The notes under the pieces were generated by a model. It saw nothing but the letters and a program-made list of their open reading frames with translations. It searched no databases and was not told the DNA's origin. A DNA stretch of 60,106 bases from Thermodesulfobacteriota bacterium. Its GTDB lineage: Bacteria; Desulfobacterota; Desulfobacteria; Desulfobacterales; Desulfosudaceae. The translations under genes and the position numbers were made by a program. Of the stretch, positions 86 to 34,498 are shown piece after piece. The first letter of the stretch is position 1. Each line of letters starts with the position of its first letter. The DNA lies in assembly GCA_040753795.1 (NCBI GenBank), contig JBFMDX010000024.1, positions 1-60,106 of the forward strand, in the 5' to 3' direction.

Positions 86-2749
86 TCACACTTTCTCCAT
101 CCGGACGGCGCAGATTTTAAACTCCGGTATCTTGGATACAGGATCAAGCGCGCTGTTCGTCAGTTTGTTGGCGGCGGCCTCAATAAAATGGAACGGCACG
201 AACACGACCCCCCGATCGGTCACATCGGAAACCATGGCCTTTATTTTCATCTGACCGCGCCGGGAAATCAGATTGACATAATCCCCGTCCGCGAGATGAA
301 TGGCCTTCGCGTCCTCGGTGTTGACTTCCGCCAGCGCCTCGGGATAGATACGGTTTAACGCGGTGCCTTTCCGGGTCATGGTGCCGGTATGATAATGCGC
401 ATGGACCCGGCCGGTTGTCAGGACAAAAGGATATTCGCCGTCGCTGACTTCCGCCGAAGGCTTGTACTCGATGGGGAAGAACTGTCCCTTTCCCCTGGTA
501 AACTGGTTGACGTGAAGGACAGGAGTTCCCGGGTGATTTTCATCCGGGCACGGCCACACCAGCCCCTCTTTTTCTATCCGATCATACCGGATGCCGGCGT
601 AGCTCGGGGTGACCCTGTTGATTTCATCCATGATGGCGGACGCGTCCGTGTAGACCATGGGGTAACCCATTCTGCCGGCGATCTCCGTGATGATTCGATA
701 ATCATCCATGGCTTCGCCCGGGGCATCCAAGGCTTTGCGCACTCTCAGTACCTTGCGCTCGGTATTGGAAAATGTGCCGTTTTTCTCCGCGAAACAGACG
801 CCGGGCAGTACCACATCCGCAATTTTCGCGGTTTCCGTCAGGAAGATATCCTGAACCACCAGAAAATCCAGTTTCGCCAGGCTCTTTTCCACGTGATTCA
901 GGTCGGCATCACTGAGCAGGGGGTTCTCTCCCATGACATAAAGGGCTTTGATCTTGCTGCCGGCCGCCGGGATCATTTCCGTCACGGTCATGCCGATATC
1001 GGCGGGAAGGGACGCCACCTTCCAGGCCGCAGCGAACTTCTCCCGCACGGCGGCATCCGTTACCGGCTGATAGCCCGTGAACACGTTGGGGAGGCCGCCC
1101 ATATCACAGGCGCCCTGCACGTTGTTCTGACCCCGCAGGGGATTGACGCCACCGCCTTCGACACCCACATTTCCGCAGAGCATGGCCAGGTTCGCCAGAG
1201 ACTTTACATTGTCGGTTCCGTGTGTGTGCTGAGTGATTCCCATGGTATAAAGAATGGACGCGGGTTTTGCCGTCCCGTACATCCGGCCAGCGGCAACCAG
1301 GTCATCGGCGGGGATCCCCGTGATTTCCGATACATAGTCAGGAGTATAACGGGCAACGCAATTTTTCAGTTCTTCAAAACCGGTGGTCCTGGCCTCGATA
1401 TATTCCGTAGCCTGAAGGTTCTCGCTGAGAATGACGTTGATGAGACCGTTGATCCAGGCGACATCCGTTCCCACCTTCGGGCGCAGCCACAGGTCACAGA
1501 TATCGACCAGCTTGATCCGTCTGGGGTCGGCCACGATCAGCCTGGCACCGTTCTTCTGGACCGCCTCATAGATAGAGTTGGCGATGATGGGATGGTTTTC
1601 CGTCGTATTCGTTCCGGTAATGAGGATCACCTTCGCCTTCAGTACGTCCCTGGCGGGATTGGTCATTGCGCCGCTTCCGAAAGAGGCAGCCAGACCGGCT
1701 ACCGTGGAGCTGTGTCAGAGGCGGGCGCAGTGATCGACATTGTTGGTACCGATCACCGCTCTCATGAATTTCTGAAATATATAGTTGTCTTCATTGGTGC
1801 ACCGGGCGGAGGTCAGCCCGCCAATCGCGTCCGGACCGTATTCCTTTTTTATTTTACCTAACTTCTCGGCGACCAGGCTCAACGCTTCGTTCCAGGAGGC
1901 CTCGACCAGCCGGCCGTCCCGCTTGATGAGGGGGGTTTTCAGACGCTCTTCACTGGAGACAAACTCATAGCCGAACCGGCCTTTCACGCACAGACTGCCC
2001 TGATTCACGCTGCTGTCTTTTCGCCCCGTGACGGCGACAATCTGATTATTAAATATGTTCAGCTCCATCTGGCAGCCGCAGCCGCAATAAGTGCAGGTAG
2101 TGGGCACTTTCTCTATGGTCCAGGCTTTCCCCTTGATGTCGCTTAGATTTTCCGTCAGCGCGCCCGTCGGGCAGACCTGCAGACATTCGCCGCAGGAAAC
2201 GCATGTTTCCGTATTGACCGCGAGCTGATGCACACCGTCTTCATTCTTCACCTCCAGAGCGCCGATCCCTTTGATTTCCCTGCAGGCGCTGACGCAGCGG
2301 AGGCAAAGGATGCAACGATCCGGCCAGTATCGGATCAGGGAGGTGGCATAGGTGGCGTTCTTTTCCTTCCGGGGAATCTGGTAGGGCACATCTTTGACCT
2401 GGAACTCAACCACCAGATCCTGAAGCGTGCACTCACCAGCCTTGTCGCAGATGGGACAATCCAGGGGATGATCGACCAGCAGGAGCTTCAGGGTTTCCTG
2501 CCGCATCCGAAAAAGATTTTCCGAATGGGTGGTAACCATGATGCCTTCCGCCACCTGGGTGTCACAGGCCGTTACCGGCTCCGGAAACCCCTGGACCTCG
2601 ACCACGCACATGCGGCAGGAGCCGATGGGTTTCAGCCTTTCATGGAAACAAAGCGTCGGGATACGAATGCCGACGCTCCTGGCCGCTCCCAGGATGGTAC
2701 TTCCTTCCGGCGCCAGGATCTCCTTTCCATCGATTGTCAATCGAACCAT
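86..2749 (-). CDS. fdhA: Selenocysteine-containing formate dehydrogenase, catalytic subunit with NuoG-like N-terminus
   Basis: Oxidises formate or reduces CO2 at a molybdopterin (Mo or W) site. The frame is interrupted by one UGA (1715-1717) in the context HCARL-U-HSSTV, the classic selenocysteine site of formate dehydrogenases, so it is read as one 887-residue protein with Sec345. The order of sites is: plant-type [2Fe-2S] (C34, C45, C48, C62), NuoG-like His/Cys [4Fe-4S] (H94, C98, C101, C107), two ferredoxin clusters (C146-C156 and C183-C193), the molybdopterin-domain [4Fe-4S] (C219, C222, C226, C254), then the Sec site and the C-terminal dinucleotide-binding domain. There is no signal peptide, so it should be cytoplasmic. 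An in-frame start exists 40 codons upstream, but the chosen ATG has a GGAGG seven bases before it. It is divergent from the hmc genes and monocistronic here; the electron acceptor (NAD, ferredoxin or HdrA) cannot be read from the sequence. Confidence 0.93.
1685..1717 (-). promoter_or_regulatory. SECIS hairpin and UGA selenocysteine codon of fdhA
   Basis: The UGA lies at 1717-1715. Eleven bases later a 7-bp stem (1703-1697 paired with 1691-1685, one G-U pair) closes a GGUCU loop. The GGU of the loop starts 18 nt after the UGA, the same spacing and loop core as I recall for the E. coli fdhF element that binds SelB. This supports recoding rather than termination or a frameshift. Confidence 0.85.
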
Positions 2750-3207
2750 TTGAATTCCTCCGAAAAAACGGGTTTGCCAATATATCGATTTAAATATCAA
2801 GCGTTGTATTCGGGCGGCGCTGTCGCTTCCGGTCACTGACCTGTTTTTCGTTTTTTGCACCAACGCCACAAGGGGGAATAAGTATCAAAAACTTTTTCGA
2901 TAATCAAATACTTTTTCACCCCTTTTCCGCTTTTAGACCAGTAGCGGAAGGCATGGTTTCCCGCCTGCGATCGCGATGCGCCTTCCGATTCAAGACGGGA
3001 ATAAACTTGCGCCTTTTCCGAAATAACAGCAATTTTTTTTTGCAATCCGTAGAAAAATATTCTAAAAAGGAGGGTCGTTTTATTGCGGAAAAAACATTTT
3101 TCCGTGGAGGGTCGCCGGGCATGAGCGCGGGCCGTAACCGGATATAATCCCGGGATGCGGCGACAACCAGTTGAAACGGTTGATCATTATTTAAGGATTA
3201 TCGGAAA
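2750..3207. other. Divergent intergenic region between fdhA and hmcA
   Basis: This 458-bp AT-rich gap must hold the promoters of both fdhA and the hmc operon. It contains a perfect hairpin (CGGAAAAA 3086-3093, TTTTTCCG 3097-3104), a TATAAT hexamer at 3143-3148 without a recognisable -35 partner, and several poly-A/T stretches. Short frames inside it resemble no known protein. No sigma-54 -24/-12 pair was seen. Confidence 0.5.
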
Positions 3208-4791
3208 ATGATGACGAGAAAACATCTGGCTTATTTCGCCTGTGTGTTATCAATAGTCACGATGGGCATATTCTGCACCGACCTGTATGGACGGGATCCG
3301 TCTTCGCCGGAACCCTCGCAGCTTCGCCCTGACCTGATTTCCATCGACGGCCTGACCGCCTTCGGCCACCTGGAAAAGCAACCGGTTGAATTTCTTCACG
3401 ATGCTCACACCAAGGCCCTGTCCGAAAAAAACCGCGACTGCACCGTCTGCCATCTACCGGAAAAAGACCGTATTTCCCTGAAGTTCAAAAGGACAAAAGA
3501 TACGAACCGGGTCGAGGTGATGAATATTTATCACCAGGAATGCATCTCCTGCCACGGGGACATGAAAAAAGCGCGGGAAAAAACCGGCCCGGTGGAGTGC
3601 GACGGCTGCCATAAAGAACAAAAACAGTACGTTTCTTCCCGCCGGCCCATGGGGTTTGACGCCTCCCTGCACTTCCGGCATTCTGAAGCGCGGCAGAAAA
3701 AATGCGAGCAGTGTCACCACGAATATGACGAAAAAGAGCAAAAACTGTTTTATGCCAAGGGCCAGGAAGGCACCTGCCGCTATTGTCATCGTGCCGAAAC
3801 AACGGACAAGGTCATTTCCATGCGCCTGGCCTCCCACATGGCCTGCGTCAATTGCCACGCCGGCAACCTGGCCAGAAAGATGGAAAGCGGGCCCATCGAT
3901 TGCGCCGGATGTCACGACGCCGAGGCCCAGGCGAAAATCGAAAAAGTTTGGCCCCTTCCGAGAATGGAGCGGAAGCAACCGGACGTGGCGCTGCTGAAGA
4001 CCGCGTCGAAACCGGCAGGGGAAGAAGAAAAACCGACCCGGATGAATTATGTGCCCTTTGATCATAAAGGCCATGAAACCTATAACGACACCTGCCGGGT
4101 CTGTCACCATGAAAGCCTCCAGCCGTGCAACCAATGTCATACCCTTACCGGAACAAAGGAAGGCAAAGACGTCCGCCTCGAAACCGCCATGCATCTGGCG
4201 GATACGGAACGAAGCTGCACGGGCTGTCATGCCGGAAAAACGCGGGACAAGAATTGCGCCGGCTGTCATGCCCTCATGGGAACAAAGCCGGCCAACGAAG
4301 ATCGATCATGCCTGATCTGCCATATGACGCCGCCGTCTGGATACGAATCTCCCCTGACGCCGGAAGCGGAAAAGACCATGGCCGGCGACATGCTCCAATC
4401 CAGAAAACCGGTCACCGGCACCTACCCGGATGAGGATATCCCGGAGAAAGTGGTGATCAAGCATCTTTCCAGAGAATATGAAGCGGTCGAGTTTCCCCAT
4501 CGAAAGATCGTCCGGGCGCTGGCGGATAATATCAAGGAAAACCGTCTGGCCGGGTACTTCCACGACCAGGAAGGCACCCTGTGCATGGGCTGTCATCATC
4601 ACAGCCCCGCCTCGACAAAACCGCCCCAGTGCGCCAGCTGCCACGGCAAAACCTTTGACAGGGAAAATCCGTTAAAACCCGGCATCATCGGCGCCTATCA
4701 TCAGCAGTGCATGGGCTGTCACCGGGAAATGGACATCGCCAAACCGGCCGGATGCACGGAATGCCATAAGAAAATCGAGTCAAACCCATAG
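3208..4791 (+). CDS. hmcA: Sixteen-haem cytochrome c HmcA
   Basis: Periplasmic electron-transfer subunit that exchanges electrons with the cytochrome c3 pool. The 527-residue protein has an N-terminal hydrophobic signal segment (about residues 8-24) and exactly sixteen CXXCH haem-binding motifs, from CTVCH near residue 77 to CTECH near the C-terminus, with many additional His residues as distal ligands. Sixteen haems and a size near 540 residues match the high-molecular-weight cytochrome of Desulfovibrio. The next genes encode the ferredoxin, NrfD-type, small and cytochrome b subunits in the known hmc order, which makes the assignment firm. It starts the operon; hmcB follows after 18 nt. Confidence 0.93.
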   Translation: MMTRKHLAYFACVLSIVTMGIFCTDLYGRDPSSPEPSQLRPDLISIDGLTAFGHLEKQPVEFLHDAHTKALSEKNRDCTVCHLPEKDRISLKFKRTKDTNRVEVMNIYHQECISCHGDMKKAREKTGPVECDGCHKEQKQYVSSRRPMGFDASLHFRHSEARQKKCEQCHHEYDEKEQKLFYAKGQEGTCRYCHRAETTDKVISMRLASHMACVNCHAGNLARKMESGPIDCAGCHDAEAQAKIEKVWPLPRMERKQPDVALLKTASKPAGEEEKPTRMNYVPFDHKGHETYNDTCRVCHHESLQPCNQCHTLTGTKEGKDVRLETAMHLADTERSCTGCHAGKTRDKNCAGCHALMGTKPANEDRSCLICHMTPPSGYESPLTPEAEKTMAGDMLQSRKPVTGTYPDEDIPEKVVIKHLSREYEAVEFPHRKIVRALADNIKENRLAGYFHDQEGTLCMGCHHHSPASTKPPQCASCHGKTFDRENPLKPGIIGAYHQQCMGCHREMDIAKPAGCTECHKKIESNP

Positions 4792-4809
4792 TAAGTTGAG
4801 GAACATCAC

Positions 4810-5751
4810 ATGTCCATGTCACGAAGGAAGTTTCTCGGATGGATAGGCGCGGCGGGGCTGGGATCGGCCGTGGGAAAATCGGCCCTTGCCGGCGGCGGCA
4901 AGCACTTTGAAGGCTATCCCGACAGCTTCGGTGTCCTGCACGACATCACGCTGTGCGTGGGGTGCCGCAGCTGTGAAGCGGCCTGCGCCAGGGTCAACGA
5001 ACTGCCCGCGCCCGAAAAGCCGTTTACCGATCTGACCGTACTCAATGAAAAACGGCGGACAACAGCCAAGACATTTACGGTGGTCAACAAGTATGCGATC
5101 GACGGCCGGAAAGCGCCTCTGTTCAGGAAGAACCAGTGCAATCACTGCCTGGAGCCGGCCTGCGCCTCCGCCTGTTTTGTCAGAGCCTTCCAGAAGACAA
5201 AAACCGGCGCGGTCGTCTACGATCCCTCCGTATGCGTCGGATGCCGCTACTGCATGATCGCCTGCCCTTTTGAGATTCCGACTTACGAATATGACGAGCC
5301 CCTGACGCCCCGCGTCATGAAATGCACCATGTGTTACCCCCGGGTAATGGAAGGAAAACTTCCCGGATGCGTGGAAGCCTGCCCCAAAGAGGCCCTGATC
5401 TTCGGCAAGCGGAAAGAACTGCTCAAGATCGCCCGGGAAAGGTTCCGCAAGTATCCGGGCCGGTATGTGGATCACATTTACGGCGAGACGGAAATGGGCG
5501 GCACCAGCTGGCTGTATATTTCCGGCGTTCCGTTCTCTCAAATCGGCATGCGGGAGGACCTCGGCGTCACCCCGGCCCCCGAGCTGACATCCGGCGCCCT
5601 GTCCGCGGTTCCCGTGGTGGTGGGGTTGTGGCCGGTGCTGCTGATGGGGATCTACGCCATATCCAAACGCAAGGAAATAATCTTCAATCAGGAACGGGAA
5701 GCACCGGCGCATGAAACGGCCGCGCCGGCGCCGGCCGAGGAGGATCTCTGA
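4810..5751 (+). CDS. hmcB: Hmc complex ferredoxin-like iron-sulfur subunit HmcB
   Basis: Passes electrons between HmcA and the membrane subunit. The protein (313 aa) begins with a twin-arginine-like signal (SRRKFLGW, residues 4-11), so it should be exported. It carries four cysteine groups for [4Fe-4S] clusters: [35 protein letters not shown] and a split CTMC...C...C set. A single hydrophobic helix near residues 262-282 probably anchors it to the membrane. This DmsB/NrfC-like layout is standard for partners of NrfD-family proteins. Its TGA overlaps the ATG of hmcC by one base, which indicates translational coupling. Confidence 0.9.
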
Positions 5752-6923
5752 TGTTCGACAAAACATCATTCGACGTCAAATCACTGCTGACCCCTTTTCA
5801 TATCGTGGCCGGGCTGATTATTTTCCTCGGGCTGATCATCACCGTCCTGCGGTTTACCATGGGACTGGGGGCCGTGACCCATCTTTCCGACGACAACCCC
5901 TGGGGGCTCTGGATCGGATTCGATCTGCTGGTCGGCGTGGCCCTGGCGGCCGGAGGATACGTGACCTCGGCGGCCGTCTACCTTTTCGGAATGAAAAAAT
6001 ACCACTCCGCGGTCCGGCCGGCGGTGCTGACGGGATTTCTGGGATACGCGCTGGTCGTTTTCGCCCTCAATTACGACGTCGGCCGGCCCTGGCGCCTGCC
6101 CTATCCGTTTATCATGCAACAGGGCACCACTTCCCTGCTTTTTGAAGTGGCCGCGTGCGTCGCCCTCTATCTGACGGTGCTGTTTCTTGAATTCCTGCCG
6201 GCCCCCCTGGAATGGCTGGGATTGAAAAAAGTGCGGCAGCTGGCCGTCCGGCTGACCCTGGCGCTGACGGTGCTGGGCGTCGTGCTGTCCACCCTGCATC
6301 AGTCCTCCCTGGGCGCCCTCTTCCTGATCGCGCCGTCCAAGCTTCATCCCCTGTGGTATTCGTCCTATCTGCCGGTATTCTTTTTCATATCGAGCATCAT
6401 CGCGGGGCTGTCCATGGTGATCTTTGAAAGCACGCTGTCTCACCGCTATTTTGCGGATAAAATGGATGAAACCCATCGCAGCGAAAAAGAGGGCGTAACC
6501 CTGGGGTTCGGCAAAGCCGCTTCCATGGTCCTGCTGGGTTACTTCACCATCAAGATGATGGGGATTGCCGCCGGCAACCACTGGCGGCTGCTGGGTACGC
6601 CTTACGGGATGTGGTTTCTGGTCGAACTGCTGGGATTTATCGCCCTGCCGTCACTCTTATACGCGGTCGGCGTCCGCAACAGGGATCTGGGGCTGATCAA
6701 ATGGACCGCCGCCTGGACGGTGCTGGGCATTGTCATCAACCGCCTGAATGTCTGCCTGATCGCGTTCAACTGGCAGCTTCCCGCGAGCCAGCGATACTTC
6801 CCGCACTGGATGGAGATCTCTCTGTCCGTTTTCATCGTCACCGTGGGCATTGTTGCTTTCCGGTTTATCGTCACCCGGATGCCGATCTTTTATGAACACC
6901 CGGAATACAAGGATGTCCATTAA
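5751..6923 (+). CDS. hmcC: NrfD/PsrC-family integral membrane subunit HmcC
   Basis: Membrane quinone-interacting or proton-translocating subunit of the Hmc complex. The 390-residue protein is almost entirely hydrophobic with about ten transmembrane helices and has the NrfD-family NPWGLWIGFDL segment near residues 46-56 between the first helices. In this family the subunit has no redox cofactor and works with an HmcB-type ferredoxin. It is translationally coupled to hmcB; hmcD starts 29 nt downstream. Confidence 0.9.
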   Translation: MFDKTSFDVKSLLTPFHIVAGLIIFLGLIITVLRFTMGLGAVTHLSDDNPWGLWIGFDLLVGVALAAGGYVTSAAVYLFGMKKYHSAVRPAVLTGFLGYALVVFALNYDVGRPWRLPYPFIMQQGTTSLLFEVAACVALYLTVLFLEFLPAPLEWLGLKKVRQLAVRLTLALTVLGVVLSTLHQSSLGALFLIAPSKLHPLWYSSYLPVFFFISSIIAGLSMVIFESTLSHRYFADKMDETHRSEKEGVTLGFGKAASMVLLGYFTIKMMGIAAGNHWRLLGTPYGMWFLVELLGFIALPSLLYAVGVRNRDLGLIKWTAAWTVLGIVINRLNVCLIAFNWQLPASQRYFPHWMEISLSVFIVTVGIVAFRFIVTRMPIFYEHPEYKDVH

Positions 6924-6952
6924 AAAGGCACAGCCTTAAGGAGACCGTATTG

Positions 6953-7096
6953 ATGGAACCCGTTTATTTTACCTATCAGGAATTTTATACGCACACCAAG
7001 GGGGTGGTCTATGTTCTGATGATTGCCGCCCTGATCGGTTTTGTGTTCTTCTGGCGATTTCTGACCGGAAAAGACGACGAAAATAAGGAAATCTGA
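6953..7096 (+). CDS. hmcD: Small single-helix membrane subunit HmcD
   Basis: A 47-residue frame opens with ATG after an AAGGAGA Shine-Dalgarno sequence (6938-6944). It has a polar N-terminus, one hydrophobic helix (about residues 18-38, VVYVLMIAALIGFVFFWRF) and a charged tail. Size and position, between the NrfD-type and cytochrome b genes, match the tiny HmcD of Desulfovibrio. It probably stabilises the membrane part of the complex. Only 3 nt separate it from the next gene. Confidence 0.8.
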   Translation: MEPVYFTYQEFYTHTKGVVYVLMIAALIGFVFFWRFLTGKDDENKEI

Positions 7097-7099
7097 GAC

Positions 7100-8611
7100 A
7101 TGTTTTACACGCTTGCGATCTATTGCGCCCTGGCGGTCTTCGGGGTCGGCCTGCTCTATAAGATGTCAGGCTGGTTCCGGTTTCAGATCGGAACCGGTCC
7201 CGGAGAGACGACGATGTCGACCCGTGTTGCGGCCGTTCTGAAGGGCCTGTCCGGTGTCCTGTTCAGCCCCCGGCTGATGATCCTGATCCGCGTTTTTTTC
7301 CGGGACGTGCTGCTTCAGTTGCGGATTCTGGAAAAAGACAGGCTGCGCTGGATCATGCACATGCTGATCTTCACCGGCTTCATGTTCCTGTTCTTCACCC
7401 ATGCCCTTGACCGGATCATCGCCACTCCCCTGGCCGACCGGTATTATTTGAAGCTCAATCCCTTCCTGATCGTTCCGGGGCTCATGGTCCTGGCGGGAAT
7501 CGCCCTGGCCGTCTACCGGCGTTTTGTCCTTAAGGTGCCGCGACTGAAAACCGGCCCCATGGATCGTTACGCCCTGACCCTCCTGGCGGTGATCATGCTC
7601 TCCGGAATCGCCATGGAACTGACCAAGCTCACTTCCTACGAGTACTACCAGTTCTTCTGGAACATCCATGTCCCGGCCTGCCTCCTGGGCCTGGCCTATC
7701 TTCCTTTCAGCAAAATGCTTCACGTGTTCACCACCCCGGCCAGCCTGCTGGCCAACGGCGTCATGAATGAACATTCCGCCGCCGCCAACGTCATGACCCG
7801 CCAGGTCATGGAGCTGGATGCCTGCACGCGCTGCTGCACCTGCAGTCTCCACTGCTCGGTGGCGGTCGCCGGCGACAGCCTCGGCAATGATTTGATTCTG
7901 CCCTCGGAGAGAATGGCCTTCCTGAAGGATTATATCGCCGGTAAACAGTTGAGCCCGCGAGGGTTGGCGGCCATTCAGCAGGGCGTTTACCTCTGCACCA
8001 ACTGCGACCGCTGCACGGTGGTCTGCCCGGCAGGCATCAACCTTCGGGATCTGTGGTTCCGGGTCCGGGAAGAGATGATTTTGCGCGGCCAGGCGGTTCC
8101 CCTGACGCTGACCCCCCTGTCTTTTTACCGGGGACTTCGTCAGCGGGAGCTGGCGCCGGATCAATATGCCGAGCCGCCGCGGAAAGCGCAGCAGGCTCTG
8201 GGCGGTGATGCCGCGCGGCTGCGGCAGCCGGAACAGACAATCGCACTGGCGCCGGCCGACGGAGGATTCGGTCTCTCCGCCGCCCTTTCCGGCCGCGCCG
8301 CCACCTTTGCCTCCTGTTTTACCTGCGAAAACTGCTCCACGGTCTGCCCGGTAGCCGGCAACTACGACGATCCCCGGGAGCATCTTGACCTGCTTCCCCA
8401 CCAGATCATCCGTTCCCTGGTCCTGGGCCTGGAGGATCTGGCCATGGGTTCTAAAATGCTGTGGTATTGCCTGACCTGCTATCAGTGCCAGGAGCACTGC
8501 CCGCAGGGCGTTAAGGTAACCGATATCTTCTATGAACTGAAAAACCTCGCCGCGCAAAAGGCGGCCCGTACTTCCGTTCCGGCCGTTTCCGGGGAACGCG
8601 CCGCTCATTAA
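7100..8611 (+). CDS. hmcE: Cytochrome b (HmcE/NarI-like) fused to ferredoxin and HdrC domains
   Basis: Takes electrons across the membrane and delivers them to the Hdr module. Residues 1-225 form a NarI/DsrM-like domain with about five helices and several membrane His residues (IMHML, FTHAL, NIHVP, KMLHVF) as likely haem b ligands. A first 2x[4Fe-4S] ferredoxin follows (CTRCCTCSLHC near 241, CTNCDRCTVVC near 300), then a second HdrC-like pair (CFTCENCSTVC near 405, CLTCYQCQEHC near 457). In Desulfovibrio hmc the cytochrome b (HmcE) and the Fe-S/CCG protein (HmcF) are separate; here the Fe-S part has moved onto the cytochrome and HdrB is a stand-alone gene. The symbol is used for the cytochrome part only. 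Confidence 0.82.
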   Translation: MFYTLAIYCALAVFGVGLLYKMSGWFRFQIGTGPGETTMSTRVAAVLKGLSGVLFSPRLMILIRVFFRDVLLQLRILEKDRLRWIMHMLIFTGFMFLFFTHALDRIIATPLADRYYLKLNPFLIVPGLMVLAGIALAVYRRFVLKVPRLKTGPMDRYALTLLAVIMLSGIAMELTKLTSYEYYQFFWNIHVPACLLGLAYLPFSKMLHVFTTPASLLANGVMNEHSAAANVMTRQVMELDACTRCCTCSLHCSVAVAGDSLGNDLILPSERMAFLKDYIAGKQLSPRGLAAIQQGVYLCTNCDRCTVVCPAGINLRDLWFRVREEMILRGQAVPLTLTPLSFYRGLRQRELAPDQYAEPPRKAQQALGGDAARLRQPEQTIALAPADGGFGLSAALSGRAATFASCFTCENCSTVCPVAGNYDDPREHLDLLPHQIIRSLVLGLEDLAMGSKMLWYCLTCYQCQEHCPQGVKVTDIFYELKNLAAQKAARTSVPAVSGERAAH

Positions 8612-8622
8612 GGAATACGATA

Positions 8623-9492
8623 ATGAAATATTCGTTATTTCTCGGGTGTAATATTCCGGCCAGAGTCCAGCACTATGAACTTTCGGCCAGGGCCGTGTGC
8701 AACCGGCTGGGAATCGAAATCGCCGACAACGACCAATTCAAATGCTGCGGCTATCCGGTCCGGAACATCGACGCCGGGACCTCCCTGCTCATGGCCGCGC
8801 GCAACCTGGCCCTGTCGGAAAAGACGGGCCTGGACATGATGGTGCTGTGCATGTGCTGCTTCGGCAATTTGAAGAAAGCCGCCCACCTGATCAAAAACAA
8901 CCCGGCCCTCCGGGATGAAGTCAACGGAGCACTGTCCAAAGAAGGCCTGACCTGTACGGGAACAATCGGCATCCGGCATTTTCTGTCCGTTCTGTGCCAT
9001 GACATCGGCATCAGCGCGCTGAAAGAAAAAGTGGTCCGGCCGTTTAAAAGCATTCGCATCGCGTCGCACTACGGATGTCACGGGCTGAGGCCCAGCGACG
9101 TCACTGAATTCGACAATCCCGTCGCGCCGGTTCTGCTCGATGAACTGGTCACGGTCACCGGCGCCGTCAGCGTCGACTGGCCGTTAAAGCTGGAATGCTG
9201 CGGCGCTCCCATGCTGGGCGTCAACGACGGGCTTTCCCTGGACCTGACCGGAAGAAAACTTGCCGATGCCAAGCGGTCCGGGGCCGATTATCTATGCGTC
9301 GCCTGTCCCTATTGTCAGATGCAGTTCGGCCGGGTCCAGCAGATGATGGCCTTGCAGCGCCAGATGGAAATCGGTGTCTTGAGCGTTTTATTTCCCCAGC
9401 TTCTCGGGCTTGCCATGGGCATCAAGGGAAGCGAACTGGGGATGGACAGGCATGTCCTCGATGTCAGCAGAATCGAATCATTACTGGAATAG
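8623..9492 (+). CDS. hdrB: HdrB-like CCG-domain protein
   Basis: Catalytic subunit of heterodisulfide-reductase type, holding unusual [4Fe-4S] clusters that react with disulfides or pass electrons to HdrA. The 289-residue protein has two CCG domains. The first includes C9 and the CCG at 41-43 plus CMCC near 80; the second has HYGCHG near residue 155, LECCGAPM near 195 and CVACPYC near 226. There are no membrane segments, so it is cytoplasmic. It starts 11 nt after the HdrC-bearing fusion and abuts hdrA, so together they supply the HdrB and HdrC functions that HmcF combines in Desulfovibrio. The natural disulfide substrate is unknown. Confidence 0.88.
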   Translation: MKYSLFLGCNIPARVQHYELSARAVCNRLGIEIADNDQFKCCGYPVRNIDAGTSLLMAARNLALSEKTGLDMMVLCMCCFGNLKKAAHLIKNNPALRDEVNGALSKEGLTCTGTIGIRHFLSVLCHDIGISALKEKVVRPFKSIRIASHYGCHGLRPSDVTEFDNPVAPVLLDELVTVTGAVSVDWPLKLECCGAPMLGVNDGLSLDLTGRKLADAKRSGADYLCVACPYCQMQFGRVQQMMALQRQMEIGVLSVLFPQLLGLAMGIKGSELGMDRHVLDVSRIESLLE

Positions 9493-9501
9493 GTGATCAC
9501 C

Positions 9502-12500
9502 ATGTCTCAAAAGAAAATCGGGGCAGTAATGGTCGTCGGCGGCGGCATTGCCGGTATGCAGGCGGCACTGGACGCGGCCGATTCCGGCTATTACGTCTAT
9601 CTGGTTGAACGCTCCTCCTCCATCGGCGGGCTGATGGCTCAACTGGATAAAACCTTCCCCACCAATGATTGCGCCATGTGAGTGATCTCGCCCAAACTGG
9701 TCGAGGTCGGCCGGCACATCAATATCGAGTTACTGACATTATCGGAAGTATTGAACATATCCGGCGAGGCGGGAAATTTCGCTGTTTCCCTGCGAAAGCA
9801 CCCCCGGTTCGTGGATATGGACAAATGCATCGCCTGCGGTCTGTGTGCGGAAAAATGCCCGAAGAAAGTCGCCAACGAATACGACGGCGCCCTGAGTCAG
9901 CGCAAGGCCATTTACGTCAAATACGCCCAGGCGGTACCGCTTAAATACGCCATCGATGCCGACCACTGCATCTTTCTGACCAAGGGGAAATGCGGGAACT
10001 GCAAAAAGGTCTGCCCCACCGGCGCCATTAATTACGACGAAAAGCCCCAGGACGTCACCCTCCAGGTGGGAGCGGTCATCCTGTCCAGCGGATGCGACCC
10101 CTATGATCCGAAAGGCCACGACAACTTCGGATACGAAAAATCCAAAAATATCGTCACCAGCCTGGAATTCGAGCGGATCCTGTCGTCATCCGGTCCCTAC
10201 GGCGGGCACCTGGTCCGGCCGTCCGACAAAAAAGAGCCCCGGAAAATCGCCTGGCTCCAGTGCATCGGGTCCCGGGACGTCCATATCGGCGCCCGGGGGT
10301 ACTGTTCATCGGTCTGCTGCACCTATGCCATCAAGGAGGCCATGCTGGCCAAGGAGCACTGCAAGGACCCCCTGGACGCGGCTGTTTTTTACATGGATAT
10401 CCGCGCCCATGGGAAAGACTTCGAAAGGTATTACAACCGGGCCCGCGACCAGTATGGCGTCCGTTTCGTCAAGTCCAGAATTACCAACATCCTTCCCACC
10501 GAGAACGGCAATCAGCTCATCCGGTATTTTGACGAATCCGGCCGGCGGATGGAAGAAGAGTTCGATATCGTGGTGCTGTCCGTGGGCCTGGGGGTAAACC
10601 CGACGGCGGCGGCTCTGGCTCGATCCATGGCGGTCGACCTGGACGGTTATGGATTTGTTAAAACCAGCAGTTTCGAACCGGTCCGGACCTCCCGGCCCGG
10701 CATCTTCGTGTGCGGTTCCTTTGAAGCGCCCAAGGACATCCCCTCCTCCGTCATCGAGGCCAGCGCGTCGGCCGGCACTGCCGGCTGCGACCTGGTGGAA
10801 GCCCGCTGGACATTGAGTAAAAAGAAGGAATCACCGACGGAACTGGATACCCGCGGCGAACCGCCCCGTATCGGCGTTTTTGTCTGCTGCTGCGGCACCA
10901 ACATCGCCGGGGTGGTCGACGTGCCGGCGGTGGTGGAATACGCCAGGACCCTGAAAGACGTCGTTTACGCCGAGAAGAACATGTTCAGCTGCTCCCAGGA
11001 CACCCAGGACAACATGGCCAAAATCATCCGGGAGCAAAATCTCAACCGGGTGGTGGTCGCCGCCTGCACCCCCAAAACCCATGAATCGCTTTTCCAGGAA
11101 ACCCTGACCAACGCCGGCCTGAACAAGTATGTATTTGAAATGGCCAACATCCGCAACCAGTGCTCCTGGGTCAACAAGGACAACCCGGAAGCCGCCACCG
11201 CCAAGTCAAAAGACCTGGTCCGCATGGCGGTGGCCAAGGCATCCCTCATCGAGCCCCTGACGGAAGCCGAACTGCAGATCAACCCGTCGGCCCTGGTGGT
11301 CGGCGGCGGCATTGCCGGCATTACCGCCGCGAAAACCCTTTCCGCGCAGGGCTACCACGTCTACCTGATTGAAAAAAGCAATCATCTCGGCGGCCAGGCC
11401 AGGCAGATTCAGGAAACCTGGCAGGGAGAAGATGTTCAGAAAAATCTCAACCGCCTGATCGAGGAGATCAAGGCCGACGACAAGATCGATATTTTCGCGA
11501 GCTCGGAGATTATCAAGGCGGACGGGTTCGTCGGCAACTACAAGGCCACCGTCCGGACCCCGGACAAGACAGTGGAGTTGGAGCACGGCGTCATCATTAT
11601 CGCCTCCGGCGCCGGTGAGCTGAAACCGGATCAATATCTTTACGGGAAGGATCCGCGGGTGATGACCAGCCTGGAACTGGACCGTAAAATGATCGAAAAA
11701 GATCCGGCCCTGTCCCGGAAAAACACCGTCCTGTTTGTTCAATGCGTCGGTTCCCGGATCCCCGAACGGCCTTACTGCTCCAAGGTCTGCTGCACCCATT
11801 CCATCCGGAGCGCCCTGCGGCTGAAGGCCCTTAACCCGGAAACGGACGTCTATATTCTCTATCGGGACATGCGCTCCTACGGGTTACGGGAAGACCTGTA
11901 CCGACAGGCCCGGGAGAAAGGGATCGTGTTTCTCCGTTATCGCGCCGAACAGGGGCCGGACGTGCGCGCGGAAGGCGGCTGTCTCAAAGTCCGCGTTGTC
12001 GACACCGTCCTCCGTCGCCCCCTGGAAATAACGCCGGATCTGATGGTGCTGGCCACGGCCGTCGTCCCCCCGGAAGACAATCCCCTGGCCCAGCAGTATA
12101 AAGTCACCCTGAACAACGACGGTTTCTTCATGGAGGCCCATGCCAAGCTGCGGCCGGTGGACTGCGCCACGGACGGTGTGTTCATCTGCGGCCTGGCCCA
12201 CGCCCCCAAACCCATTGACGAGTCCGTTGCCCAGGCCACGGCGGCGGCCACGCGGGCGGTAACGCTCCTGGCCCGGAAGACCATCCGCACCAGCGGCACT
12301 GTTGCCGAGGTCGTTCCCTCGATATGCTGCAGCTGCGGAGTGTGCGTGTCCATCTGCCCCTACTCCGCCCCGTCCTTCATCGACAAGAGCGCCAGATTCA
12401 ACCCCGGGAAAGCGACCATCAATCCGGCCCTGTGCAAGGGGTGCGGCCTTTGCGTGGCCTCCTGCCGGTCCGGGGCCATCCGCCTGAAGGGCTTTGACAC

Positions 12501-12543
12501 GCAGCAGGTCCTGGCGCAGATCACGGCGCTGACCGAGGAGTAG
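9502..12543 (+). CDS. hdrA: Selenocysteine-containing HdrA with two FAD domains
   Basis: Flavin and iron-sulfur hub of Hdr complexes, able in relatives to bifurcate or confurcate electrons. The frame contains one UGA (9679-9681) in TNDCAM-U-VISPKL, where ordinary HdrA has Cys, so it reads as 1013 residues with Sec60. The order is: FAD fold (GGGIAGM near 14), Sec motif, ferredoxin ([11 protein letters not shown] near 109, second half near 163), the HdrA N-terminal-type CCCGTNI segment near 461, a second FAD fold (GGGIAGI near 598), and a C-terminal ferredoxin ([11 protein letters not shown] near 940, [11 protein letters not shown] near 981). Typical HdrA is about 650 aa, so this is an extended, partly duplicated form. 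A GTG lies three codons upstream of the ATG; the ATG was chosen because an AGGTG sits just before it. Confidence 0.88.
9679..9714 (+). promoter_or_regulatory. SECIS-like hairpin and UGA selenocysteine codon of hdrA
   Basis: After the UGA (9679-9681) and 15 intervening bases, a 6-bp stem (CUGGUC 9697-9702 with GGCCGG 9709-9714, two G-U pairs) closes a GAGGUC loop containing the GGU core. The stem is weaker and 5 nt further from the UGA than in fdhA, but within the range seen for bacterial SECIS elements. Confidence 0.7.
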
Positions 12544-12610
12544 ACAGCCGGGCGCGGTCGTTGACGGAGACAGCCCCGGGGTCCAGGATTTGTTGAAATG
12601 AAAAGGGATT

Positions 12611-13966
12611 ATGGCGTCACCTGAAAACACCACCGGCACGGTTTATTCCGTATCCGGCCTGACGGCCGCGATCAAGCACCTGCTGGAGAAAAACTTCCCC
12701 ATCATCTGGATTGAGGGCGAAATCTCCAATTTCCGGACCGCCGGGTCCGGTCACTACTACTTCACCCTTAAAGACGACAAGGCCGGCATCGGCGCCGTCA
12801 TGTTCGCCGGCCAGCACCGTCACCTGAAGTTCATCCCGGAAGACGGCCTGAAGGTCACCGGGCTGGGCCGGATCAGCGTCTATGAGCCACGGGGAACCTA
12901 TCAGATCATCCTGGAACATATGATGCCCAAGGGCGCCGGAGAACTCCTCATCGCCTTTGAACAACTCAAGAAAAGACTGGGGGAAGAAGGGTTGTTCGAC
13001 CCGGCCCGCAAGAAACCGATTCCCTTCATGCCGGCCACCATCGGCATCATCTCCTCGCCCGCGGGAGCGGTAGTCCACGACATTATCCAGGTCGCCACCC
13101 GCCGCTTTCCCGGCCTGCGCATCCAGATTTTTCCCGTGGCGGTCCAGGGGAAAAACGCCGCCCGCGAGATAGCCGAAGCCGTGGCCCTGGCCAACCAGCG
13201 GGCCGAAGCGGAGGTGCTGGTCATCGCCCGGGGCGGCGGCAGCCTGGAGGATCTGGCGCCGTTCAACTCGGAGATCGTGGCCCGGGCCGTTTACGGATCC
13301 GTCATACCGGTCATATCGGCCGTGGGCCATGAAACGGATTTCACCATCTGCGACTTTGTCGCGGACCTGCGGGCCCCCACGCCTTCGGCCGCCGCCGAGT
13401 TGATGGTCCCGGTCCGGCAGGATCTGCTGGCGGCCCGCCGGGGACTGCACCGGCGACTGGTCAGCGCCGCCGACAAACTCCTTCGCCGCAACCGTGAAAT
13501 GCTGTCCTCCCTGCTGCGCCGCCTGGCCGATCCCCGTCGTCATGTCCAGGATATCCGGCTGCGGCTGGATGACCTGATGGCCCGCATGGAACGGATGCTG
13601 AAGAACAGCCTCCGGGGCCGGCAGACCCGTCTGGACTGGCTGAATGAACGGCTGACCGGCGGACAGCCGGCCCGGCTGCTTGAAGACCGGCGGCGATCCA
13701 TTGAACTTGCCCGTGCCGGCCTGACCCGGCAGACGGCCGCTTTTATCCGGGAAAAGCGCCACCGCCTGCATACCATCACCGCCACCCTTACCGCCCTTGA
13801 CCCCACCGCCGTATTGGAAAGGGGATACAGCATTGCCCGGACAATTCCCGGCGGACGCGTCATCACAACCCCCCTGCAGGTATCCGCCGGCGACAACCTG
13901 GAGCTGCGGGTGGCCCGGGGAATCATCAACTGTCAAGTCAAACCGGACAGGAGGGAAACGCCATGA
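12611..13966 (+). CDS. xseA: Exodeoxyribonuclease VII large subunit
   Basis: Catalytic subunit of the nuclease that degrades single-stranded DNA from both ends. The 451-residue protein has the N-terminal OB-fold (about 10-105, including the WIEGEISNFR segment), the central catalytic domain with GIISSPAGAVVHDI and the ARGGGSLEDLAPFN motif, and a long charged coiled-coil C-terminal region. The length is normal for the family. Its stop overlaps the xseB start by four bases, so the two subunits are coupled, and it heads an operon with isoprenoid genes. Confidence 0.95.
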   Translation: MASPENTTGTVYSVSGLTAAIKHLLEKNFPIIWIEGEISNFRTAGSGHYYFTLKDDKAGIGAVMFAGQHRHLKFIPEDGLKVTGLGRISVYEPRGTYQIILEHMMPKGAGELLIAFEQLKKRLGEEGLFDPARKKPIPFMPATIGIISSPAGAVVHDIIQVATRRFPGLRIQIFPVAVQGKNAAREIAEAVALANQRAEAEVLVIARGGGSLEDLAPFNSEIVARAVYGSVIPVISAVGHETDFTICDFVADLRAPTPSAAAELMVPVRQDLLAARRGLHRRLVSAADKLLRRNREMLSSLLRRLADPRRHVQDIRLRLDDLMARMERMLKNSLRGRQTRLDWLNERLTGGQPARLLEDRRRSIELARAGLTRQTAAFIREKRHRLHTITATLTALDPTAVLERGYSIARTIPGGRVITTPLQVSAGDNLELRVARGIINCQVKPDRRETP

Positions 13967-14208
13967 CACAGAAAAAGAATTTTGAACAGGCGCTGCAGGA
14001 ACTGGAAACCATCGTGGCTGAAATCGAATCCGGCGATCTGCCGCTTGAAACCGCCCTGAAAAAATTTGAAACCGGCATGAAACTGTCCGCGGCCTGCGCG
14101 GAAAAACTGAACGAAGCGGAACAGAAAATCAGCCTGCTGCTGAAAAACAGCGCCGGCGAATACGTGGAGACGCCTTTTATTCCCGATGATAGCCGCAATG
14201 ACAGCTAA
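13963..14208 (+). CDS. xseB: Exodeoxyribonuclease VII small subunit
   Basis: The 81-residue acidic, helical protein contains the family pattern FEQALQELETIVAEIESGDL followed by a LETALKKFETGM helix. It binds the coiled coil of XseA to activate the nuclease. It overlaps xseA by four bases (ATGA) and the start of ispA by 23 bases, a very compact arrangement. Confidence 0.93.
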   Translation: MTQKKNFEQALQELETIVAEIESGDLPLETALKKFETGMKLSAACAEKLNEAEQKISLLLKNSAGEYVETPFIPDDSRNDS

Positions 14209-15112
14209 CCGCCCGGCCGGGCCGGCCGCCGCCCTGGACCAGTACCTGAGGGAGCGCCGCGACGTGATCAATAAAGCCCTGTCCGCCATCCTGGACGACA
14301 TGGTGCCGGCTGGGCGCCTGCGCGTTGCCATGGCATACTGTTTGGAAGCGGGCGGCAAACGCCTGCGGCCCATTCTCTGCCTGGCAGCCACGGAAGCCGT
14401 GGGCGGGAACCCGGAAGTCGCCCTTCATGCCGGCTGCGCCATTGAACTGATCCACACCTATTCCCTGATCCATGATGATCTGCCGGGTGTGGACAACGCT
14501 CCTCTGCGACGGGGTCGGCCCTCCTGTCACGCGGCGTTTGACGAGGCCACCGCCATTTTCGCCGGAGACGCCCTGCACACCCTGGCCTTTCAGGTCCTGG
14601 CCTCGGCGAAACATGTTCCGACCGGACCGGAAACGCGTCTGGAATGCATCCGGATCATTGCCGCCGCCACCGGGAACACCGGCATGATCGAAGGCCAGAT
14701 GCGGGACATGCTGGCCACGGAAAAGCCCCAGACGCCGGAGGACCTGCGGCGTCTTCAGGAACTGAAGACCGGGGCCCTGATCACCGCCGCCGTCCATGTC
14801 GGCGCCCTGCTCGGCGGTGCCGACGCCGTTACGACCGGCCGTCTGATCGCGTATGCCGGACAGATCGGATTCGCGTTTCAGATCGCCGATGATCTGCTGG
14901 ACATTGAAGGCGATCCGTCCCTGATGGGAAAATCGACGGGGGAAGACGCCAGGCAGAAGAAGGCCACCTTCCCGGGGCTTATGGGAAAGGAGGATGCCAG
15001 GAAACTGGCCCACACCTTGGTGGAAGACTCCCTGGCCGCCCTGGCGTCTTTTGGAGAAAACGCCGACCCCCTGCGGAAAATCGCCGCTTTCATCATCGAA
15101 CGCGGCTACTGA
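14186..15112 (+). CDS. ispA: Polyprenyl (farnesyl/geranyl) diphosphate synthase
   Basis: Condenses isopentenyl diphosphate with allylic diphosphates to give C10-C15 prenyl chains. The 308-residue protein has the GGKRLRP substrate-binding motif, a first Asp-rich motif HDDLPGVDN (DDxxxxD, short-chain bacterial type), RRGRPSCH, and the second Asp-rich motif DDLLDIEGD. In most homologues the residues after the first motif are also Asp (MDDDDLRRG); here they are DNAPLRRG, a mild departure. The start overlaps xseB; an internal ATG four codons later is also possible because no clear ribosome site favours either. The gene pairs functionally with dxs just downstream. Confidence 0.92.
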   Translation: MIAAMTANRPAGPAAALDQYLRERRDVINKALSAILDDMVPAGRLRVAMAYCLEAGGKRLRPILCLAATEAVGGNPEVALHAGCAIELIHTYSLIHDDLPGVDNAPLRRGRPSCHAAFDEATAIFAGDALHTLAFQVLASAKHVPTGPETRLECIRIIAAATGNTGMIEGQMRDMLATEKPQTPEDLRRLQELKTGALITAAVHVGALLGGADAVTTGRLIAYAGQIGFAFQIADDLLDIEGDPSLMGKSTGEDARQKKATFPGLMGKEDARKLAHTLVEDSLAALASFGENADPLRKIAAFIIERGY

Positions 15113-32626: not shown

Positions 32627-34498
32627 ATGTATAAAGACTGGCTGAACGACCACTGCAGCGGAAAAATCGTCGTCGCCGAAGAGGCGATCTCTAAAATCAG
32701 AAGCGGTGACAGGGTCTTTGTCGGTACCGGCTGCGGGGAGCCCCAGCTGCTGATCAAGACCATGGTCGGCGAAGAAACGATCCAGGACATCATGGTCTAC
32801 CAGATGCTGTCCTCGACCTTCGCCCAGTTTGTCGAAGACCCCTCTTTTTTAAGAAGATTTTTCCTCAAACTTTTTTTCATCAGCCGGGACATGCGCCAGG
32901 CCGCGTTCAACGGTAAAATCGAATATATTCCCGCCTATCTTTCCCAGATTCCCGGCCTGTTTTCCCGAGGCGCCATCGGGCTGGACGTGGCCCTGATCCA
33001 GGTCAGCCCGCCGGACAAATTCGGCTACTGCAGCCTGGGGGTTTCCGTGGACATCACCAAGGCCGGTACGGAAAACGCCAAACTGGTCATCGCCCAGGTC
33101 AACCAAAACATGCCCATGACCTTTGGTGACGGTTTTATCCACGTGGATGACATCGACTACCTGGTCCTGCATGATGAACCCCTGGTGGTGGGTTTCCGGG
33201 ATATTCCCGACAACGTCGTGTCGCAGCGCATCGGCTTTTATGTTTCCCAGCTGGTCCCGGACGGCGCCACTCTGCAGATCGGGTTCGGCCAGTTGCCCAA
33301 CTACATTCTCAAACACCTGGCCAACAAAAAAGACCTGGGACTGCACACGCAGCTCATCACCGACGGCATGATCCCTCTTTTCGAGCAGAAAGTCATTACC
33401 AACCGGAAAAAAACACTGCTGCCGGGACGGGCCGTGGCTTCACTGTGCATGGGGACACCGGAACTCTACGAGTATGTGAACAAAAACCCGGCCTTCATCT
33501 TCCGCTCGTCGGAGTTCGTCAACGACCCCACCGTCATCGCCCGCAATGACAACCTGGTATCCATCAGTTCGGCCCTGGAAGTGGACCTGACGGGTCAGGT
33601 CTGCTCCGACTCCATGGGATACCGGTTCTACAGCGGCATCGGCGACCAGGTCGATTTCCTGCGGGGCAGTGCCATGTCCCGGGGCGGTTTTTCCATCATC
33701 GCCCTGCCCTCGACGGCCCAGAAAGGTCAGGTCTCGCGTATCGTCTCCCACTTGAGCGAAGGCGCCGGCGTGGCCACCACCCGCGGCGATATCAATTTTG
33801 TCGTGACCGAATACGGCATCGCCGAGCTTCAGGGCAAGGGCATCTATCAACGGACCATGGAACTGGCCCAGATCGCCCATCCCAAATTCCGGGCAGACTT
33901 GATCAACGTCGCCAAGAGGCATCATTACATATTTCCCGATCAGTTGCCCCCGATTCAGGAAGACCTGATTTTTCTGGAGGATTACAAGAGTACCCTGAAG
34001 CTTAAAGACGGACGGACCATTGAAGTGCGGCCGGTGCTGCCGTCGGATGAATTTTCCTACCGGAACTTCTACTACTCCCTCAAAGGCGAAACCATCTATT
34101 ACCGGTTTTTCCATAAAAAGCGCATTTTCTCCCATGCCATGCTGCAGAAGCAGTGGTCAGCGGTGGATTATCGCAAAAACATGTCCCTGGTCGGGCTGGT
34201 CCGGACCAAAGGCCGCAAGGAATTCATGGCCATCGCCTCCTACGCCAGAGGAGACGACGACACCAGAGCCGAAGTCGCCTTCGTAGTCCGTGAAGATTAC
34301 CAGGGCCTGGGCATCACCTCCTACCTGCTGGAGCAACTGGAAAAGATCGCCATTGAAAACGGCTATATCGGTTTTACCGCCACCGTTCTGGCGGACAATA
34401 CGGCCATGCTCCATATTTTCAAGAAACGGTACCCCAACGCCAAGTTCGCGCGGGAAAGCGGCAACGAAATTACCATTACCATGGATTTCGAGCGGTGA
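32627..34498 (+). CDS. Acetyl-CoA hydrolase/CoA-transferase fused to a GNAT acetyltransferase domain
   Basis: Residues 1-435 form a family I CoA-transferase (acetyl-CoA hydrolase / 4-hydroxybutyrate CoA-transferase type), with VFVGTGCGEPQ at the start, ATLQIGFGQLPNYIL and the FRSSEFVND segment that carries the likely catalytic Glu (near 290). Residues 455-623 are a GNAT domain with EVAFVVREDYQGLGITSYLLEQL, the acetyl-CoA pyrophosphate-binding loop. Similar fusions are known in Deltaproteobacteria; the GNAT part might acetylate the enzyme itself or another protein, which is inference. It probably moves CoA between short-chain acids. It follows tsaB by 59 bases with no clear promoter. Confidence 0.85.
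   Translation: MYKDWLNDHCSGKIVVAEEAISKIRSGDRVFVGTGCGEPQLLIKTMVGEETIQDIMVYQMLSSTFAQFVEDPSFLRRFFLKLFFISRDMRQAAFNGKIEYIPAYLSQIPGLFSRGAIGLDVALIQVSPPDKFGYCSLGVSVDITKAGTENAKLVIAQVNQNMPMTFGDGFIHVDDIDYLVLHDEPLVVGFRDIPDNVVSQRIGFYVSQLVPDGATLQIGFGQLPNYILKHLANKKDLGLHTQLITDGMIPLFEQKVITNRKKTLLPGRAVASLCMGTPELYEYVNKNPAFIFRSSEFVNDPTVIARNDNLVSISSALEVDLTGQVCSDSMGYRFYSGIGDQVDFLRGSAMSRGGFSIIALPSTAQKGQVSRIVSHLSEGAGVATTRGDINFVVTEYGIAELQGKGIYQRTMELAQIAHPKFRADLINVAKRHHYIFPDQLPPIQEDLIFLEDYKSTLKLKDGRTIEVRPVLPSDEFSYRNFYYSLKGETIYYRFFHKKRIFSHAMLQKQWSAVDYRKNMSLVGLVRTKGRKEFMAIASYARGDDDTRAEVAFVVREDYQGLGITSYLLEQLEKIAIENGYIGFTATVLADNTAMLHIFKKRYPNAKFARESGNEITITMDFER

Follow-up and report, generated by a model that had tools for sequence, protein, structure and literature searches.

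The Hmc complex of Desulfovibrio (HmcABCDEF) connects to a cytoplasmic partner that is described as not known in a published account, where DsrC or ferredoxin is suggested for this role and mutant data are taken to suggest that the complex sends electrons outward (PMC4215793). In HotSeep-1, an HdrA is encoded beside a protein with heme c and CCG domains, and the pair was proposed to act as a cytochrome c oxidoreductase in which bifurcation would be possible (PMC10553843). The window analyzed here, the whole stretch of 60,106 nucleotides of contig JBFMDX010000024.1 from a Thermodesulfobacteriota bacterium, carries a gene block in which hmcA, hmcB, hmcC and hmcD are followed by a gene for a cytochrome b-ferredoxin-HdrC membrane fusion, hdrB and hdrA, all head to tail on the + strand. 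This block proved genuine and conserved: it combines two known systems and bears a clear structural mark. Fusions linked to Hmc lack a heme-c motif that is found in the others. Its products probably assemble into a single complex that spans the membrane and connects cytochromes of the periplasm with HdrB and a bifurcating HdrA. The features of the locus are the following:

3208..4791, + strand: hmcA, periplasmic hexadecaheme cytochrome c of 527 amino acids (aa) with 16 CXXCH motifs (NF045713, 620 bits, cut-off 400)
4810..5751, + strand: hmcB, iron-sulfur (Fe-S) protein (NF045715, 539 bits, cut-off 420)
5751..6923, + strand: hmcC, NrfD-type integral membrane protein (NF045714, 683 bits, cut-off 550)
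6953..7096, + strand: hmcD, 47 aa (NF045712, 70 bits, cut-off 34)
7100..8611, + strand: membrane fusion of 503 aa with four CX2CX2CX3C motifs, a NarI-like cytochrome b plus two dicluster domains
8623..9492, + strand: hdrB, ligand cysteines present in both CCG half-sites (5odc_B, E 2.7e-59)
9502..12543, + strand: hdrA, 1013 aa with its TGA read through, two thioredoxin-reductase-like cores, predicted selenoprotein
9679..9681, + strand: in-frame UGA, predicted selenocysteine at position 60 of HdrA
9697..9714, + strand: stem-loop resembling a selenocysteine insertion sequence, 3' of the UGA, 7 bp, loop AGGU
86..2749, - strand: fdhA, formate dehydrogenase with a NuoG-like N-terminus, divergent (TIGR01591, 867 bits, cut-off 666, TGA read)

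The gene list proposed by the first-pass annotation was correct, including the sixteen CXXCH motifs of HmcA, and HmcA, HmcB, HmcC and HmcD all exceed the NCBIfam equivalog cut-offs that define membership in the Hmc complex. HmcA has solved relatives in 1gws, 1h29, 2e84 and 1z1n, and the N-terminal SRRKFLG of HmcB presumably represents a twin-arginine-like signal. The gaps between consecutive genes from hmcA to hdrA are 18, -1, 29, 3, 11 and 9 bp, small enough to make a single transcription unit plausible; a scan of positions 2600-14300 for promoter-like sites (7 versus 4.9 expected) and terminator-like sites (20 versus 13.3 expected) says little on the transcript, and Rfam models at gathering cut-offs gave no match in the window. 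Looking for the same gene order elsewhere had been proposed as a check, and the block was indeed found in 10 further genomes, in one of them lacking hmcB, hmcC and hmcD beside it, which sustains the claim that HmcABCD shares one gene block with a complete complement of Hdr-type subunits and that this block is kept across its carriers. The 11 carrier genomes (the window's, those of loci L023-L030, L257 in genome G542 and L258 in genome G711) are assigned by their records to Desulfobacterales and Desulfobulbales; hmcD was sought at the window's locus only, and locus L031 is cut off upstream. This recurrence was the reason for rejecting a chance neighbourhood. Unlike the block, the window's downstream genes found no match in L023-L030 when used as queries; we take these genes to be xseA, xseB, ispA, dxs and tlyA, the presumed xseA beginning 67 bp past the end of hdrA.

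The fusion had been read in that annotation as an HmcE with added domains, an interpretation that fails on its score of 21 bits against an HmcE cut-off of 275. Its NarI-like cytochrome b is followed by a ferredoxin dicluster (C242-C309), whose closest resemblance is to the domains in HmcF, DsrK, GlpC and succinate dehydrogenase, and by an HdrC-like dicluster (C406-C467) resembling HdrC and QmoC. A Foldseek search with the fusion model returned nothing at E <= 0.001, the best match being EtfD (9ojn, E 1.1e-3), with NarI at E 0.85 and above. Judged by sequence and neighbourhood, the fusion belongs to a common membrane-Hdr family with the gene set fusion-HdrB-HdrA. Relatives were taken as the best 80 of 160 in a scan of the collection, making 81 loci with the window's, and near the fusion hdrB was found in 77/81 and hdrA in 74/81, some contigs ending too early. 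After dropping truncated fusions (L031, L046, L050, L052, L061, L083, L094), His 87, 101, 190 and 208 as well as the 16 cluster cysteines proved invariant in all 74 full-length sequences.

These 74 fusions fall into two forms. The long form (65 sequences, 558-613 aa, exactly one CXXCH in each of the 65) has an insert of about 90 residues that precedes the last membrane helix and lies across the membrane from the Fe-S domains. Because the Fe-S domains that follow it must be cytoplasmic, this heme-c insert is predicted to be periplasmic, on a topology that we infer from modelled helices. The short form (nine sequences, 490-506 aa) contains no CXXCH and is Hmc-linked in every case, with hmcA upstream of all nine. 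Restricting the comparison to loci with at least 2.5 kb upstream, Hmc genes precede 8/8 short and 0/40 long forms. Among 20 further stretches, hmcA was found at 6/6 short forms and no Hmc match was obtained at the 14 long forms, the fusions of L257 and L258 also being devoid of CXXCH; four of these six short forms repeat earlier genomes, and so do some long forms (L256, L259, L260 and L261 repeat genomes of the first scan, L275 is the genome of L067, and L262 and L263 look like repeats of the L051 and L081 genomes). When 389 genomes of the order were sampled, 133 had the fusion, short forms included, and an N-terminal-half match as in the short forms occurred in 9 of those 133, the window's included and one of them partial. 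Since Hmc-linked fusions lack the heme-c motif and the others have it, HmcA seems to replace the heme lost from the fusion, though in what amounts to one evolutionary event. By the same sequence comparison, the absence of the loop only where HmcA is encoded is further evidence that both halves work together. As a separate observation, one long-form cluster has a tetraheme cytochrome c3-like gene after its hdrA (L043, 6715-7134).

This distribution bears directly on whether the operon might instead encode two separate complexes under shared regulation and without contacts, HmcABCD working with menaquinone and fusion-HdrB-HdrA forming a menaquinone- or cytochrome-linked Hdr of its own. HmcC is of the NrfD type and the fusion is NarI/EtfD-like, both families whose members may react with quinones, and the membrane-Hdr family is mostly found without Hmc. 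NrfD relatives have moreover been proposed as menaquinone-interacting pumps (PMC4215793). Nevertheless, the heme-c loop is missing exactly where HmcA is encoded, as would be expected if HmcA docks on the fusion, and two independent complexes are thus considered unlikely.

On the cytoplasmic side, residues 10-380, 447-610 and 829-1010 of HdrA match the solved HdrA in its core, its N-terminal and its C-terminal part, respectively. Type II HdrA proteins with two thioredoxin-reductase cores have been described for archaea, with E356 and K409 proposed as markers of bifurcating flavins and this pair reported in 75 percent of type II sequences (PMC12054007). The window's HdrA has the two nucleotide-binding cores of type II both by Pfam and in its structure model, and in structure alignments covering 37 fusions and 22 HdrA proteins the equivalent residues E224 and K278 are found in the first core of 22/22, and all cluster cysteines of HdrA are likewise kept in 22/22. 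The earlier suggestion of a possible bifurcating flavoprotein is supported by the bifurcation residues in the first core. HdrB retains its nine ligand cysteines in 74/74 sequences and C79 in 71/74, so that the cluster ligands of HdrB and the E/K pair of the first HdrA core are those of a functional-type HdrABC; the curated equivalog models were missed by all three components (HdrA2 971/1100, HdrB 236/345 and HdrC 70/160 bits), which marks them as Hdr-like and not as equivalogs. It was also observed that the first CCG half-site of HdrB (window 8848-8859, residues 76-79) reads C-x-C-C instead of the CNGC of solved HdrB, with Cys78 present in 74/74; this extra cysteine may mark a changed active-site cluster.

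A simpler use of the same parts would be a cytochrome-to-DsrC line without bifurcation, in which HdrB acts as a CCG protein on DsrC and HdrA is minor or structural. HdrB indeed has both ligand sets, and the window's genome encodes DsrC (118 bits) and DsrK (731 bits, cut-off 400), because of which the organism is probably a sulfate reducer. Furthermore, fusion-hdrB pairs exist among distant long forms (L267-L273, hdrB at 37-43 percent) with no detectable hdrA within 5-7 kb downstream, and DsrC has been suggested as a partner of Hmc and Tmc (PMC4215793). Against this stand the higher conservation of HdrA compared with HdrB and the fusion, its complete set of cluster cysteines and the maintenance of its first-core E/K pair, for which reason a line of this kind is regarded as a serious but somewhat unlikely alternative. 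In the same genome, several HdrA-like segments are found no more than about 10 kb from the gene for DsrC (contig C6, 93993-103984).

The reading frame of hdrA deserves separate attention, as the mechanically called open reading frame (ORF) spans only 9682-12543 because of the in-frame TGA at 9679-9681 (context TNDCAM*VISPKL). This UGA very probably encodes selenocysteine on comparative grounds: the site aligns with Cys 197 of solved 5odc_A, a stem-loop lies 3' of it, and selenocysteine transfer RNA (tRNA-Sec) was found in the window's genome (75 bits, gathering score 47), by a model that also passes in 5/14 control genomes. Hmc-linked hdrA genes elsewhere carry TGA in 9/10 genomes, with TGC (Cys) in L257 from G542. 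Among 83 distinct 60-base hdrA stretches, paralogs included, 68 have TGA, 12 TGT and 3 TGC, and the full 7-bp stem, which starts at a distance of 18 bases from the UGA (counted from its U), is present in 66/68 TGA, 1/12 TGT and 2/3 TGC sequences (TGA versus Cys forms, Fisher p 4e-10 with relatedness ignored); the single-sequence fold of the stem-loop is unremarkable (z -0.55). A nonsense mutation in a broken gene would also interrupt the ORF. However, the TGA recurs in 67 further distinct sequences with Cys at this site in 15 others, the stem-loop persists alongside TGA but has degenerated in the majority of TGT sequences, and tRNA-Sec is present, so this explanation was rejected as having practically no chance of being right. 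A selenocysteine-containing HdrA is known in Desulfobacterium autotrophicum (PMC2702500).

At the phylogenetic level, the short fusions form one clade with support 100/100 in a tree of 41 of the 74 fusions. A concatenated alignment of HmcA, HmcB and HmcC (30 rows, without L025) accepts one clade for the Hmc-Hdr loci, with better likelihood when they are held together (approximately unbiased test, p-AU 0.694). Our reading of these sequences is that the block had one origin and was later retained in Desulfobacterales and Desulfobulbales; therefore, loop loss and Hmc gain would be one event, not many.

Several results weigh against a single bifurcating complex, and the first of them follows from this history: despite its perfect fit, the association between loop loss and Hmc has a single origin. 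A tree of HmcC alone (52 rows) separates the Hmc-Hdr rows into two groups in all 200 bootstrap trees. At L025, from genome G529, hmcA directly precedes the fusion without hmcB, hmcC or hmcD (8365-11503), and the sole over-cut-off HmcC of that genome adjoins HmcF on another contig. L068 and L083 have neither hdrB nor hdrA in about 10.9 kb downstream of the fusion, to which the distant loci lacking a detectable hdrA must be added. In the second core of the window's HdrA, the E/K pair is replaced by D727 and R769, positions that were matched by eye through LELER and the CC-motif. Finally, the structure model of the fusion is of low quality over the C-terminal third (predicted local distance difference test scores of about 31-51).

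With these points taken into account, a single membrane complex in which HmcABCD is joined to a membrane-anchored Hdr is still favored. Electrons would pass between periplasmic c3-type cytochromes and HmcA and cross the membrane via the two b hemes of the fusion, HmcB and HmcC forming a branch that possibly touches menaquinone or moves protons. On the cytoplasmic side they would travel along four [4Fe-4S] clusters, through the ferredoxin domain and then the HdrC domain, to HdrB and HdrA, where the first flavin of the selenocysteine-containing type II HdrA would be the site at which electrons are split or merged. Among downhill uses, the likeliest would be bifurcation from a cytoplasmic two-electron donor such as formate, reduced nicotinamide adenine dinucleotide (NADH) or another. 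One electron would then go to ferredoxin, while the other would either reach HmcA by way of HdrC and heme b or be delivered at HdrB to a disulfide such as that of DsrC. The reverse might also occur, ferredoxin and periplasmic electrons being merged to give NADH. By textbook potentials, two reactions would be downhill: bifurcation driven by formate, with ferredoxin and c3 cytochromes as acceptors, and confurcation in which electrons from ferredoxin and c3 yield NADH. The physical unity of the complex, its wiring order, partners and direction are all inferred, and direction cannot be read from sequence. The fuller picture of a transmembrane flavin bifurcating or confurcating machine, with the periplasmic cytochrome pool as high-potential or input arm, HdrA tying ferredoxin to extracytoplasmic electrons via heme b, and a one-heme docking loop swapped for HmcABCD, is put forward tentatively, at a little below even confidence.

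Regarding the cytoplasmic donor, formate had been suggested from the divergent fdhA. Reading the TGA at 1715-1717 (HCARL*) yields a full FdhA and a second likely selenoprotein; its start was placed by choice at the MVRL methionine, the ORF opening at 2869, so that fdhA lies 338-458 bp upstream of hmcA depending on its start. An FdhA feeding HdrA would be in line with the Fdh-Hdr complexes solved in methanogens (7bkb) and with same-strand FdhA relatives beside long forms in L052, L069 and L084 (L015, the same DNA as L069, was left out of the count). In the flanks examined, neither L031 nor any of the 10 other loci linked to Hmc had a match to the FdhA catalytic domain nearby, and other loci have FrhB/FdhB-like proteins, NuoE/F-like proteins or an uncharacterized 316-aa Fe-S protein. 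Formate as the cytoplasmic partner is accordingly rated as improbable. Because the loci vary among these proteins, their gene content suggests one core with exchangeable donors. The 316-aa protein carries two Fe-S motifs, and its gene is often the one after hdrA (L028 15990-16940, L034 16290-17240 and others); it has matches at 22/81 loci, distant copies included, with Fer4-type Pfam domains only and no NCBIfam match, and distant copies adjoin fdhA in L052, L069 and L084. A different arrangement is observed in L064, L066, L070, L079, L081, L085 and L092, where the fusion, hdrB and a short HdrA-like stretch precede NuoE-like and NuoF-like genes, followed in L079 by a NuoG-like/HdrA-like fusion (Pfam). 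The presence of NuoE-like and NuoF-like genes suggests an NADH-linked version. Elsewhere in the window, one ORF (32627-34498) combines acetyl-CoA hydrolase/transferase and GNAT acetyltransferase domains.

The hybrid locus can also be set beside ordinary Hmc loci. HmcC exceeds its cut-off in 32 of 395 genomes of the phylum, the window's included, and the 31 other over-cut-off loci were compared together with 49 weaker ones, making 80 stretches. None of the 80 has a match above 50 bits to hdrA, hdrB or the fusion on either strand, some stretches stopping at contig ends, and hdrA and hdrB are accordingly found at 0/31 of the over-cut-off loci. The order hmcA, hmcB, hmcC, an HmcE-sized gene and an HmcF-sized gene is found in 18/31 (462-489 aa in 17, 419 aa in one), the remaining 13 being 11 nine-heme clusters and two with a 12-heme gene and a 567-aa ORF. 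In those last two, L167 and L168, the 12-heme gene is HmcA-like and the 567-aa ORF occupies the HmcE position. There is no HmcF in the window's operon, the best match in its genome reaching 244 bits (cut-off 750) on another contig. In 6/7 of the other carriers tested, which were those available as whole genomes and did not include L028-L030, hmcC and hmcF exceed their cut-offs on another contig. A simple replacement of the ordinary Hmc in its hosts was rejected on this basis, and because these carriers keep hmcC and hmcF the hybrid is, by gene content, often a second, divergent Hmc of its host; only G542 and the window's genome, among carriers tested, have the Hdr-linked copy alone.

An Hmc operon with hdrA was not met in the literature searched, which covered no preprints and few subscription papers, so that its absence from print is not established; nor was a name met there for the heme-c-bearing membrane Hdr clusters, a wider family that is marked by the exchange of loop for module. 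A natural Hmc variant ending in HdrB and HdrA gives a testable system and offers concrete candidates for the cytoplasmic end, a disulfide at HdrB and ferredoxin at HdrA. If the proposal is true, a single complex could couple ferredoxin to electrons that enter the periplasm from H2, formate or partner cells, with consequences for how sulfate reducers and syntrophs conserve energy.

Compared with the Desulfovibrio Hmc complex, the window has the first four subunits, HmcA to HmcD, in the same order and above the cut-offs of the curated models, whereas the fusion, HdrB and HdrA stand where HmcE and HmcF would be. The block shares with methanogen HdrABC (5odc, 8rvu, 7bkb) the HdrB ligands, the HdrC-like domain and the HdrA core cysteines with their E/K pair, but its HdrC forms part of the same chain as a membrane cytochrome b and its HdrA is a two-core protein under the HdrA2 cut-off. 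EtfD and HdrF hold their CCG domains within the same chain. The window's fusion resembles these membrane proteins in its NarI-like cytochrome b with Fe-S domains and differs from them in having a separate HdrB, plus HdrA. QmoA and QmoB are HdrA homologs (PMC4215793). Like QmoABC, the block unites a membrane cytochrome b with an HdrC domain, and QmoC is the best NCBIfam match of the fusion; the score is nonetheless 75 bits against a cut-off of 300, the HdrC domain comes last and not first, and HdrB is present. The HotSeep-1 pair offers the likeness of an HdrA adjoining a c-heme- and CCG-bearing protein, and differs in being described as a two-gene pair, in a text that does not mention Hmc (PMC10553843).

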